From Phaeocystidibacter luteus (lineage in GTDB: Bacteria > Bacteroidota > Bacteroidia > Flavobacteriales > Schleiferiaceae): a stretch of DNA of 64,000 bases. This document shows positions 55,223 through 58,869 of this stretch, piece after piece. A program made the position numbers and the translations under genes. The stretch covers positions 124,001-188,000 of the forward strand of contig NZ_WBVO01000001.1 in the NCBI RefSeq assembly GCF_008933115.1, given 5' to 3'. The notes below the pieces were generated by a model. It saw only the letters and a program-made list of their open reading frames with translations, made no database searches and was not told the DNA's origin. Numbering within the stretch: position 1 is the stretch's first letter; the number at the start of each line of letters is the position of its first letter.

Positions 55223-55852
55223 ATGATTGACGAGCAACAAGCACTTGTTGAAGCAGGACAAATGCTTCCTCTCATGGAGGCGTTTTATACCATCCAAGGG
55301 GAAGGGGCACATACTGGTCGAGCCGCGTACTTCATTCGTGTTGGCGGATGCGACGTAGGTTGCCATTGGTGTGACGTGAAAGAGAGTTGGAACGCGGAAC
55401 TTCATCCGCCAACAGCCATTGGAGAGATTGCCAATGGTGCTGCCGAATACAGCGATACTATCGTGGTAACTGGTGGTGAACCATTTATGTGGAACATGAC
55501 CCCTCTTACCAGCGAGCTCAGATCTAAAGGCATGAAGATTCATGTGGAAACATCCGGAGCATATCCACTTTCAGGCGATTGGGATTGGATTTGCTTAAGT
55601 CCAAAGAAGACCATGCCTCCCAAGCCCGAATTCTACGAAGCTGCCCACGAACTCAAGGTTATCATTTACAATCAAAACGACTTCAAGTGGGCCGAAGAGC
55701 ACGCCGCCAAGGTGAGCCCAAACTGCCGACTCTTCCTTCAACCCGAATGGAGTAGGAGAGACACCGTAATGCTCGACATCACGGAGTACATTATGAAGAA
55801 CCCGAGGTGGCAGGTGAGTTTGCAGACGCATAAGTATTTGGGGATTCCTTAG
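55223..55852 (+). CDS. queE: 7-carboxy-7-deazaguanine synthase
   Basis: 209 residues from the ATG at 55223. Radical SAM cluster motif Cys43-x3-Cys47-x2-Cys50 (GGCDVGCHWCD), FYTIQGEGAHTGRAAYFIR at the front, VVTGGEPFMW, HVETSGAYPL and SPKKTMPPKPEF. It converts 6-carboxytetrahydropterin to 7-carboxy-7-deazaguanine for queuosine (or 7-deazaguanine DNA modification). No queC/queD/queF or dpd genes are adjacent. The stop codon is followed directly by the duplicated hairpin-rich element. Confidence 0.93.
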   Translation: MIDEQQALVEAGQMLPLMEAFYTIQGEGAHTGRAAYFIRVGGCDVGCHWCDVKESWNAELHPPTAIGEIANGAAEYSDTIVVTGGEPFMWNMTPLTSELRSKGMKIHVETSGAYPLSGDWDWICLSPKKTMPPKPEFYEAAHELKVIIYNQNDFKWAEEHAAKVSPNCRLFLQPEWSRRDTVMLDITEYIMKNPRWQVSLQTHKYLGIP

Positions 55853-55866
55853 CCTCTTCGAGGCAA

Positions 55867-55880
55867 GGCTCTTTCAGAGT
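55867..55880. other. Small hairpin, first module of the duplicated noncoding element
   Basis: GGCTCTTTCAGAG, a short inverted repeat (CTCT/AGAG), occurs here and again at 56247-56260 ahead of copy 2. In copy 1 an extra 18 bp (TTCGTACCTCAGC-type) separates it from the next module. Confidence 0.6.
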
Positions 55881-55898
55881 AAGGCTTCGTACCTCAGC

Positions 55899-56240
55899 AA
55901 GGCATCAACTTATCAGTTGGATGCAAGGCCTCGTACCTCGGCAAGGAGGCTGACGCCTAAGCCGGTTTTTGGATTGAGGATTCGGCCAGAGACAAATGGC
56001 ACAGGACTTTAGCCAGTGCATTTGATATCCAAAATGAATTAAAAGGCACCTTTAAGAAGTTGCGAGTAATCGCATCCTGGTTGTTTCAGATAGGACAAAG
56101 GATCACCCCCATATATTTTACTATCGCTAAAGGAATTGAAGCTTTAGCCTTGTGAGGAGCTGGAAGCGACGAGCCTTACTACCAACGAGAGTTGGGAGTA
56201 TTGTACACTGACGACAGGAAGTGGACCTTGTGCGCAGCAC
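55899..56240. repeat. Noncoding tandem-duplicated element, copy 1
   Basis: 342 bp nearly identical to 56261-56602 (about a dozen differences). It contains inverted repeats: GCATCAACT-tatc-AGTTGGATGC (55902-55924), AGGC-tgac-GCCT, a REP-like palindrome (55993-56024), GCTAAAG/CTTTAGC (56126-56148), and TACT-a-CCAAC-GAGA-GTTGG-g-AGTA (56177-56200, GNRA-type loop). No protein frame is shared by the two copies. Could be a structured RNA or a non-autonomous mobile element. Confidence 0.85.
55993..56024. repeat. REP-like palindrome in copy 1
   Basis: CAAATGGCAC...GTGCATTTG inverted repeat around GGACTTTAGCC; base pairing CAAATG/CATTTG and CAC/GTG. In copy 2 the inner arm is GGGC/GCCC instead. Confidence 0.7.
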
Positions 56241-56260
56241 GAAGAAGGCTCTTTCAGAGC

Positions 56261-56602
56261 AAGGCATCAACTTATCAGTTGGATGCAAGGCCTCGTACCT
56301 CGGCAAGGAGGCTGACGCCTAAGCCGGTTTTTGGATTGAGGATTCGGCCAGAGACAAATGGCACAGGGCTTTAGCCCGTGCATTTGATATCCAAAATGAA
56401 TTAATAGGCACCTTTAAGAAGTTGCGAGTAATCGAATCCTGGTTGTTTCAGATAGGACCAAGGATCACCCCCATCTATTTTACCATCGCTAAAGGAATTG
56501 AAGCTTTAGCTTTGTGAGGAGCTGGAAGCGACGAGCCTTACTACCAACGAGAGTTGGGAGTATTGTACACTGACGATAGGAAGTGGACCTTGTGCGCAGC
56601 AC
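56261..56602. repeat. Noncoding tandem-duplicated element, copy 2
   Basis: Second copy, offset 362 bp from the first, ending 9 bp before the rel/spoT promoter. The hairpin modules are kept. Differences from copy 1 include one that breaks a small hairpin (TGCGA-gtaa-TCGCA in copy 1, TCGAA in copy 2), so not all stems are under strong constraint. Confidence 0.85.
56355..56386. repeat. REP-like palindrome in copy 2
   Basis: CAAATG-g-CAC-a-GGGC-ttta-GCCC-GTG-CATTTG: 13 pairs with two single-base bulges. It resembles repeated extragenic palindromes. Confidence 0.75.
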
Positions 56603-56611
56603 CAAATTTCA

Positions 56612-56619
56612 TAGCTTTG
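56612..56619 (+). promoter_or_regulatory. TAnnTTTG -7 element of rel/spoT
   Basis: TAGCTTTG, exact consensus, 24 bp before the ATG at 56644 and just right of repeat copy 2. Confidence 0.6.
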
Positions 56620-56643
56620 TTTTAAGCTCCCATTTCCCATTAC

Positions 56644-58869
56644 ATGGACGACACCAAACAGATACAGAACGATAAGGATAAGGCCGAAATCATCAATAGA
56701 TATCGCGCGCTATTGCGCTCTACGGAGGGCAAGGCAGATGCGAAGGATAAGAAGATGATTCGCAAGGCATTCAATCTCGCATTGGATGCGCATAACGGCG
56801 TGAAACGCAAAAGCGGCGAGCCGTACATTCTGCATCCTATCGAGGTGGCGATTATCGTGGCACGCGAAATTGGGCTCGGACCAACTAGCATTGCCGCAGC
56901 ACTCCTACACGATGTTGTGGAAGATTCCGATTATACGCTGGAAGATATCGAGCGTATGTTCGGGGAGAAAGTAGCCAGAATCATCGATGGCCTCACCAAA
57001 ATGTCTGGCGTTTTCGATCAGAATATTTCTGCTCAAGCCGAGAATTTTAGAAAGCTCCTGCTCACAATTTCTGATGACCTGAGGGTAATCCTCATCAAGA
57101 TTGCTGACCGCCTTCACAACATGCGGACAATGGAGAGCATGCCGCACCACAAGCAGCTCAAAATAGCAAGCGAAACGCTGTTCATTTTCTCTCCATTAGC
57201 ACATAGAATTGGTCTGTATACGATTAAGTCAGAACTTGAAGACCTGTCACTTAAGTATACTGAACCAGAGGTGTATAGAGATATTGCTTTGAAGATCAAG
57301 GCAAGTCGAGCAGGGGAGATGAAATACCTGAAGCGGTTCTCTTCCAAAATCAGAGATTCACTGAAGCGCGAAGACCTCGAATTCACCATCAAGGAACGAA
57401 CTAAGTCCATCTATTCTATTCGCCGAAAAATGGTGAACCAGGGTGTGAGCTTCGACGAAGTATATGATAAGTTCGCCATGAGAATCATCATTGATAGTCC
57501 GCCTGAAAGAGAGAAGGCCGACTGTTGGCGAGTCTATTCTATAGTGACCGATTTCTATCGCCCCAATCCGGATCGTTTGCGCGACTGGATTTCTGCTCCA
57601 AAGTCAAACGGGTACGAATCGTTGCATACCACTGTGATGGGGCCAGATGGACACTGGGTGGAGGTTCAGATTCGATCTAAGCGAATGGACGAAATCGCTG
57701 AGAAAGGATATGCCGCTCACTGGAAGTACAAAGAGGATAGGGCGACAAGCGATAATCTCGACCAATGGTTGTCACGCGTTCGCGACCTGCTCGAGAACCC
57801 AGAGTCGAATGCTGTTGAGTTCGTGGATAACTTCAAAATGCAGCTCTTCAGCGACGAGATTTTCGTGTTTACTCCGCAAGGAGATATGCGAAACCTTCCG
57901 AAAAATGCCTCTCCGCTGGATTTTGCCTTCGACATCCATACAGATATTGGTTTGCACACACTCGGCGCCAAGGTGAATGGTAAACTCGTTCCGCTTAGTT
58001 TCAATTTGAAGAGTGGCGACCAAGTGGAGGTGATTACCTCGCAAAAGCAGAAGCCAAAGGAAGATTGGCTGAACTATGTGAAAACCTCAAAGGCACGTTC
58101 TAAAATCAAGCAGTCGCTCAAAGACGACTACAACAAGATGGTGGACAAAGGCCGTGCGGTACTAGAGCGTAAGCTGAACTTCATCAAGGTGAGAATGACC
58201 GAAAGCAATATTCAGCGAATGGTCAATCACTTCGGATACAAGAACCCGCAAGAGCTGTTCTACAAGGCTGGAATGGGCATTGTGGACAATAAGATGCTGA
58301 AGGATTTTGCAAAGGATACGCAAGGTGGCATTTACCAATACCTCCGAAGCAAAATCCGTCGTCAGCCTAGTCAGCCTAAATCGCAGCAAACCGTAAAGAC
58401 AGAGAGCTCAACACTCGTTTTTGGTCCAAATGAAGAAAAGCTAGACTTCAAGCTCGCCAAATGCTGTAACCCTATTCCAGGGGATGAGGTGTTTGGATTC
58501 CTCACTTCGAACGAAGGTATCAAGGTTCACCGCTCCGACTGCCCGAATGCGATTAGCATGCAGAGCAAGTTTGCTAACAGAACCATTCGTGCCAAATGGG
58601 TACAGAATGAACAAAGCTCATTCATTGCCAATATTCTCATCAAGGGGATCGATACCGTTGGCCTCGTCAATAAGGTCACTCAGATCATCTCTAACGACTT
58701 GAATGTTAACATTCGATCCATTGGAATATCCGGAGAGGATGGAGTGTTCGAAGGGAACATTACTGTTGTTGTGGAAGACCGCGTTCACCTCAATAACGTG
58801 ATGGACAAACTCAAGAAAGTCGAAGGTGTGGTTTCGGTAGAAAGGAAGTTTGCCGGATCTGCGAAGTAA
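56644..58869 (+). CDS. Bifunctional (p)ppGpp synthetase/hydrolase (Rel/SpoT family)
   Basis: 741 residues in the long RSH order: HD hydrolase domain (His64 in YILHPIEVA; His89-Asp90 in LLHDVVEDSDYTLE), synthetase domain (YDKFAMRIII, NGYESLHTTVMGPDG), TGS domain (IFVFTPQGDMRNLPKNASPLDFAFDIHT), a helical/zinc-finger-like part with CCNPIPGDE, and a C-terminal ACT domain (VGLVNKVTQIIS). Intact HD residues imply both synthesis and hydrolysis of (p)ppGpp, the stringent alarmone. It stands alone with its own promoter; a strong bidirectional terminator follows. Confidence 0.95.
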   Translation: MDDTKQIQNDKDKAEIINRYRALLRSTEGKADAKDKKMIRKAFNLALDAHNGVKRKSGEPYILHPIEVAIIVAREIGLGPTSIAAALLHDVVEDSDYTLEDIERMFGEKVARIIDGLTKMSGVFDQNISAQAENFRKLLLTISDDLRVILIKIADRLHNMRTMESMPHHKQLKIASETLFIFSPLAHRIGLYTIKSELEDLSLKYTEPEVYRDIALKIKASRAGEMKYLKRFSSKIRDSLKREDLEFTIKERTKSIYSIRRKMVNQGVSFDEVYDKFAMRIIIDSPPEREKADCWRVYSIVTDFYRPNPDRLRDWISAPKSNGYESLHTTVMGPDGHWVEVQIRSKRMDEIAEKGYAAHWKYKEDRATSDNLDQWLSRVRDLLENPESNAVEFVDNFKMQLFSDEIFVFTPQGDMRNLPKNASPLDFAFDIHTDIGLHTLGAKVNGKLVPLSFNLKSGDQVEVITSQKQKPKEDWLNYVKTSKARSKIKQSLKDDYNKMVDKGRAVLERKLNFIKVRMTESNIQRMVNHFGYKNPQELFYKAGMGIVDNKMLKDFAKDTQGGIYQYLRSKIRRQPSQPKSQQTVKTESSTLVFGPNEEKLDFKLAKCCNPIPGDEVFGFLTSNEGIKVHRSDCPNAISMQSKFANRTIRAKWVQNEQSSFIANILIKGIDTVGLVNKVTQIISNDLNVNIRSIGISGEDGVFEGNITVVVEDRVHLNNVMDKLKKVEGVVSVERKFAGSAK

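Follow-up and report, generated by a model that had tools for sequence, protein, structure and literature searches.

In the 64-kb stretch of Phaeocystidibacter luteus DNA that was analysed (the window), queE ends at position 55852 and rel starts at position 56644, and the DNA between both genes is a local tandem duplication. An earlier note had described a gene-free gap filled with two nearly identical copies at an offset of 362 bp, and both statements could be confirmed. Among ORFs of at least 60 aa, the only one lying wholly inside the gap is 60 aa long and runs across the unit junction. The segments 55896-56243 and 56258-56605 show 10 mismatches in 348 ungapped positions (338/348 identical) at the offset of 362, and TRF finds one array, located at 55896-56602 with a period of 362, 2.0 copies and 97% matches. 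However, the previously proposed borders, which gave units of approximately 342 bp, have to be revised, since the repeat reaches further to the left (Table 1). If one gap is allowed, AAGGCTCTTTCAGAGY is found ahead of both units, at 55865 and 56245. Unit 1 alone carries an 18-bp insertion, AAGGCTTCGTACCTCAGC, at 55881-55898, and this insertion is in turn one copy of a hairpin word that recurs across the genome. No tRNA is encoded in the 64-kb window and no transposase gene is found in or beside the element.

Both units follow the same order, in which mini-hairpin words linked by AAGG are followed by a word that we call word A, a REP-like hairpin, a unique tail and finally a CCTT-tagged hairpin in the opposite orientation. 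Word A reads CTT-GCC-GA-G-GNA-C-GA-GGC on the other strand and is capable of forming a hairpin. The REP-like hairpin is 21 nt long and bulged; in both units, the starts of word A and of this hairpin are 74 nt apart. For the closing word CCTT-GTGC-GCA-GCAC, exact matches of 15-18 nt exist in a hairpin array on contig C24, an observation that is weak on its own.

Table 1. Features of the duplicated element between queE and rel; positions refer to the window.
Feature	Position	Strand	Remarks
Mini-hairpin word GCCTC-TTC-GAGGC	55852-55864	-	Directly at the queE stop codon, whose last G it shares; loop GAA if read on the CCTT strand
Tandem unit 1, including the additional 18-bp word	55865-56240	.	Self-comparison, TRF
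Mini-hairpin word GCTCT-TTC-AGAGT	55868-55880	-	Unit 2 counterpart at 56248-56260
Word A copy limited to unit 1 (18-bp insertion plus AAG)	55881-55901	-	Pattern match
Mini-hairpin word GCATCAACT-TATC-AGTTGGATGC	55902-55924	-	Loop GATA if read on the CCTT strand; counterpart in unit 2 at 56264-56286; seen in folds
Word A of unit 1	55925-55945	-	Pattern match, covariation
REP-like bulged hairpin of unit 1, GCACAGGACTTTAGCCAGTGC	55999-56019	+	Two stem mismatches
Hairpin ACTACCAAC-GAGA-GTTGGGAGT	56178-56199 (unit 1); 56540-56561 (unit 2)	+	Named in the earlier note; sequence, folding
Unit 2 of the tandem duplication	56245-56602	.	Self-comparison, TRF
Word A of unit 2	56287-56307	-	Pattern match, covariation
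REP-like bulged hairpin of unit 2, GCACAGGGCTTTAGCCCGTGC	56361-56381	+	Stem fully paired
Unique tail of unit 2 with further hairpins	56382-56587	.	No relatives found
CCTT-tagged mini-hairpin GTGC-GCA-GCAC closing unit 2	56588-56602	+	Unit 1 counterpart at 56226-56240
Promoter-like match TTG-N19-TAGCTTTG before rel	56590-56619	+	First half within the last hairpin word

Regarding the coding potential, the assumption that the copies share no protein frame is contradicted by an open plus-strand frame of 64 codons, which is common to both units and shows five amino-acid differences between them. An open length of 64 codons is not rare by chance. A protein-coding remnant was considered and rejected, because neither this frame nor three other readings matched any Pfam family even at E<=10. 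On the queE side, the first hairpin word shares the final base of the stop codon. On the rel side, the pattern TTG-N19-TAGCTTTG, which we take to represent a promoter consensus, has two matches on the plus strand of the 64-kb window and zero on the minus strand. Copy 2 indeed ends 9 bp before the TAGCTTTG box at 56612-56619, as had been reported; however, this box belongs to a promoter-like match whose upstream half is situated inside the last word of unit 2. Concerning the two congeners, rel and queE are apart in G030, where the DNA upstream of rel differs, while G031 yielded no queE and its contig breaks off approximately 90 bp upstream of rel. Only one of them, G030, is therefore informative on the DNA ahead of rel, and as far as it can be seen in these two genomes the queE-rel arrangement appears not to be conserved.

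The BLASTN-type check proposed for one copy gave a divided result: the whole unit was found nowhere else in the own genome or in the related genomes searched, while pieces from its left edge and middle recur in the own genome. In detail, no second locus of the whole unit exists in the own genome, and no homologue was detected in 88 family and 395 order genomes, which gave only short matches of at most 49 nt. Apart from its second copy and short matches, the 3' tail (approximately 205 bp per unit) is without relatives in the own genome; it also has no homologue in 395 genomes of the phylum, among which seven others hold matches of 23-27 nt. In G071, a stretch of 49 nt matches at 80% and is part of a 302-aa ORF encoded on the opposite strand. 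It looks accidental, and so do the matches of comparable or shorter length in 26 further genomes of the order and 7 of the phylum. Among plasmids and phages, the region 55860-56610 is without match. A search with Rfam 15 gave no match at gathering threshold over the window and none at E<=1 over 55700-56700.

The recurring pieces define two dispersed families. When the left edge was used as query against the own genome, 35 matches at E<=10 were obtained on several contigs, and the matched places are chains of small hairpins spaced by CTT (AAG on the opposite strand). With the rest of unit 2 as query, the hairpin at 56361-56381 was found to recur, too. Searched as AAGGCYTCGTNCCTCRGCAAG with a tolerance of two mismatches, word A has 62 matches in the own genome (13+49), many of them in tandem arrays and hence not 62 independent loci. 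The same search gave 0 matches in the remaining 87 family genomes, which include both congeners, and the reversed-pattern control gave 0 in the own genome and 3 in total in the other 87. The REP-like hairpin, searched with GCACNGGGCTTTAGCCCGTGS at up to two mismatches, has 86 matches in the own genome (53+33) and 0 in the same 87 family genomes; its reversed control was 0 in all genomes. Word A and the REP-like hairpin are thus two repeat families restricted to the own genome among 88 of its family. Beyond the family, the exact pattern of word A gave single matches in Shinella kummerowiae and Xylophilus ampelinus among 84,980 named genomes, which is about the chance level for such a pattern. 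Moreover, none of the 24 word A and REP matches in a 464-kb sample (the window, which contributes 5 of the 24, plus 20 stretches of 20 kb) lies inside an ORF of at least 200 aa, although such ORFs, used as a proxy for genes, cover 79% of the bases.

Both families also occur together. Among 46 scanned copies of word A, 13 have a REP-like hairpin within 400 nt, in all cases on the same strand; the 33 others, which have none within this distance, are mostly located in tandem word arrays. Nine loci other than the window show word A followed by the REP-like hairpin on the same strand, and the distance, taken from the nearest word A, is 77 nt at seven of them and 76 and 82 nt at one each, compared to 74 nt in the window units. 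In the window, word A and the REP-like hairpin are separated by a 55-nt spacer without detectable homology to the spacers of the nine other loci (42/500 shuffles score at least as well). Hence, the likeness between the composites consists of the modules and their order, and distances this similar may have come about by coincidence or convergence.

Covariation supports the base pairing of both modules. For word A, 94.3% of the cells are paired in 22 distinct sequences, 3 of the 25 distinct rows having been left out as off-register or doubtful, and changes on both sides were found at 3 of the 4 pairs, in 9 cells. Cell count and score were reached by 0/500 shuffles, the pair count by 68/500. In the REP-like hairpin, for which all 25 distinct sequences could be used, 94.0% of the cells are paired and both-side changes occur at 4 of the 8 pairs, in 19 cells, with 0/500 shuffles reaching the cell count or score and 14/500 the pair count. 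The pair count is thus the less striking measure in both families. The patterns used to collect copies placed no constraint on the REP stem positions 1, 7, 16 and 21 or on any of the six outer stem positions of word A, so that covariation at these positions is not made by the selection of matches. It must be mentioned that tandem-duplicated copies are not independent; the sliding controls were far lower. The covariance analysis that had been suggested for homologues of the element is positive for the two modules, whereas the whole unit offers no homologues on which it could be done.

In the 464-kb sample, four chains of at least three CTT-tagged hairpins were found as opposed to 0 in each of five shuffles, and 16 of the 18 loops in these chains read GNA or GNNA when taken from the CTT strand; the scan misses the window's own words because the stem of word A is too short for it. 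Loops of the GNA or GNNA type, as well as tandem GA opposite GA, are known from compact stable hairpins. Counting distinct hairpins with a stem of at least 5 in the examined portion of the own genome, such loops make up 20/44 where CTT is present on both sides, 24/161 where it is present before only, 12/137 after only and 161/1698 without it. A plain hairpin scan (stems of at least 5) shows little overall excess, with 1149 hairpins compared to 1032 in one shuffle, and 39 compared to 13 when the CTT and loop grammar is required; the chain scan is sharper.

Several arrays are built from such words. In structure, the window unit is paralleled most closely by an array on contig C12 (2247-3093 of locus L042), in which 154 bp with three hairpin words and other DNA are repeated 5.4 times. 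Arrays of 54 bp with 16 copies each exist on C27 and C24, and an array at approximately 204 kb on C1 (192 bp, 2.8 copies) contains the REP hairpin and adjoins a chain of words. The 362 bp x2 of the window fits this series of hairpin-word arrays. The C24 array (4137-5012 of L007), which consists of hairpin words, is open in several frames over more than 280 codons and is a likely source of spurious gene calls. At L045 15047-15466, L131 and L044, beside the composite arrays, TTAGAGGG-like repeats take turns with another repeated hairpin, AATCCCGAGAGGCGAAGCCGATTCGGGA, which has a GAA loop and GA opposite GA.

The own genome contains three Y1 transposase genes, and all of them score above the NCBIfam cut-off for IS200/IS605 TnpA; the NCBIfam model of REP-associated transposases is matched by two of the three, below its cut-off. 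Two of the tnpA genes, on C1 and C11, sit in tandem hairpin arrays detected by TRF. At approximately 15.9-18.0 kb of C1, an IS200-type tnpA is placed between arrays of 206-207 bp with 3.1 and 3.4 copies, each unit of which contains a pair of REP-like hairpins with the cores GGGCTAAAGCC and GGGCTTTAGCCC. At approximately 6.4 kb of C11, the IS200-type tnpA is flanked by arrays of 113-114 bp with 4.3 and 4.8 copies; these arrays hold GCGCGGTGCTTTAGCGCGTGC and GCACGGTGCTTTAGCACGTGC, a related variant that shares the 21-nt bulged fold of the window hairpin. The third IS200-type tnpA, at approximately 163 kb of C23, is located between near-identical blocks which by eye are rich in perfect GC hairpins.

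The hairpin richness noted before, including the hairpin closed by GAGA, is present, but the folding signal is only moderate compared to shuffles. Unit 2 folded as DNA has a z of -3.4 (0/100 shuffles as good), folded as RNA a z of -1.7 (5/100). The region 55860-56240 folded as RNA gives a z of -2.1 on the plus strand (3/100 shuffles) and of -2.9 on the minus strand (1/100).

Taken together, we consider it very probable that the element is a BIME-like composite of species-restricted REP-type hairpins that was duplicated locally. It resembles the REP and BIME elements of the GTAG and CGTC super-families, which are imperfect palindromes of 20-40 bp, contain a bulge or mismatch, occur in many extragenic copies, cluster with other repeats and have an unpaired GTAG or CGTC tag at the hairpin foot. 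Here, imperfect palindromes have 86 and 62 matches, are extragenic in 24/24 sampled cases according to the ORF proxy, and recur in the same module combination, i.e. word A and then the REP-like hairpin after 76-82 nt at nine other loci, as expected for a BIME-like composite. A study of REPs describes species-specific families and positions downstream of genes (PMC3733652). In contrast to the known super-families, no GTAG or CGTC tag is visible by eye at the hairpin feet in the window units or the printed composites, the words are joined by CTT/AAG and many of them have GNA or GNNA loops, and the REPs within 400 nt of the 46 word A copies are all on the strand of word A. The GTAG tag being absent, the feature is not filed in the REP super-family despite its REP/BIME-like working and layout. 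A similar situation is reported for the Bacteroidetes TnpA-Y1 subclass 2.6, in which transposase genes are flanked by atypical secondary structures that are copied elsewhere in the genome and are without the canonical GT[AG]G (PMC6006769). The feature of tnpA amid hairpin repeats with copies elsewhere and no canonical GT[AG]G is common to both; unlike that subclass, the three transposases found here pass the curated cut-off of the IS200/IS605 TnpA model, but not that of the REP-associated one.

The element could also be read as a simple local duplication of unrelated intergenic DNA in which the hairpins are incidental. Such an origin would agree with the whole unit and the 3' tail being found nowhere else searched, with an RNA fold of unit 2 only marginally above shuffles and with a word A-REP spacer that is not homologous to those of other composites. 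However, the window's word A and REP-like hairpin belong to families of 62 and 86 matches, which covary and co-occur elsewhere; for the left 135 bp of each unit this reading is already disfavoured, and we regard it as unlikely. It also seems quite unlikely that the element is a structured RNA present in duplicate, or a cis-regulatory array that would act on rel or on the 3' end of the queE mRNA. The many hairpins, one of them GAGA-closed, the hairpin word directly at the queE stop codon, the rel promoter-like match with its upstream half in the last word, and the two REP stem positions at which the units differ, unit 2 being fully paired, would suit such a role. Nevertheless, the same modules are found at many unrelated loci, no homologue exists ahead of rel in G030, and the unit is without homologues for whole-unit covariation. 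The dedicated structured RNA proposed in the earlier note is unsupported, given no Rfam match (gathering or E<=1), no unit homologue in the genomes searched and a unit 2 fold that is more conspicuous for DNA than for RNA.

Among the three options of that note, a non-autonomous mobile element comes nearest, as word A and the REP-like hairpin are multi-copy, lie outside long ORFs in the sample and are absent from 87 related genomes; what is dispersed, however, are small modules, while the 342-bp unit was found only here. PATEs and other IS200/IS605-derived MITEs have hairpins near both ends, no terminal inverted repeats and an IS200-type transposase in the genome. End hairpins, missing terminal inverted repeats and the resident IS200-type transposase are found here, too, but the whole unit is not dispersed as in those elements. 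Hence, a PATE- or MITE-like transposon that moved as one unit of 360 bp is very improbable: the end words are oppositely oriented (AAGG left, CCTT right) and the genome encodes IS200-type transposases, but neither the own genome nor 87 others of the family hold a second unit locus, and the two copies are adjacent.

The REP-type composite leaves room for several assumptions on its origin. Its modules could be spread as single-stranded hairpins by the resident IS200-type TnpA, a possibility that we take seriously although we would not call it probable. The doubling may have arisen by slippage or recombination between repeated words, and any effect on the ends of the queE mRNA or on rel transcription would be a side effect. 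More speculatively, and rather doubtful at present, the CTT-tagged mini-hairpins, with their GNA/GNNA loops and, in word A, tandem GA opposite GA, might represent an undescribed class of repeats, which would be kept as ssDNA hairpins and expanded by IS200-type TnpA instead of canonical RAYTs, with the intergenic DNA of this genome written in a small hairpin vocabulary. We found no description of such CTT-tagged words in the literature, which is no proof that none is in print. The element is ordinary in kind and unusual in vocabulary. Structures associated with transposases in Bacteroidetes have been called atypical in a previous study (PMC6006769). Explained as repeat DNA, the doubled element comes off the list of candidate regulatory RNAs, and if it is true that IS200-type enzymes move this hairpin vocabulary, a connection between ordinary IS200 transposases and REP-like domestication would be established for Bacteroidetes.
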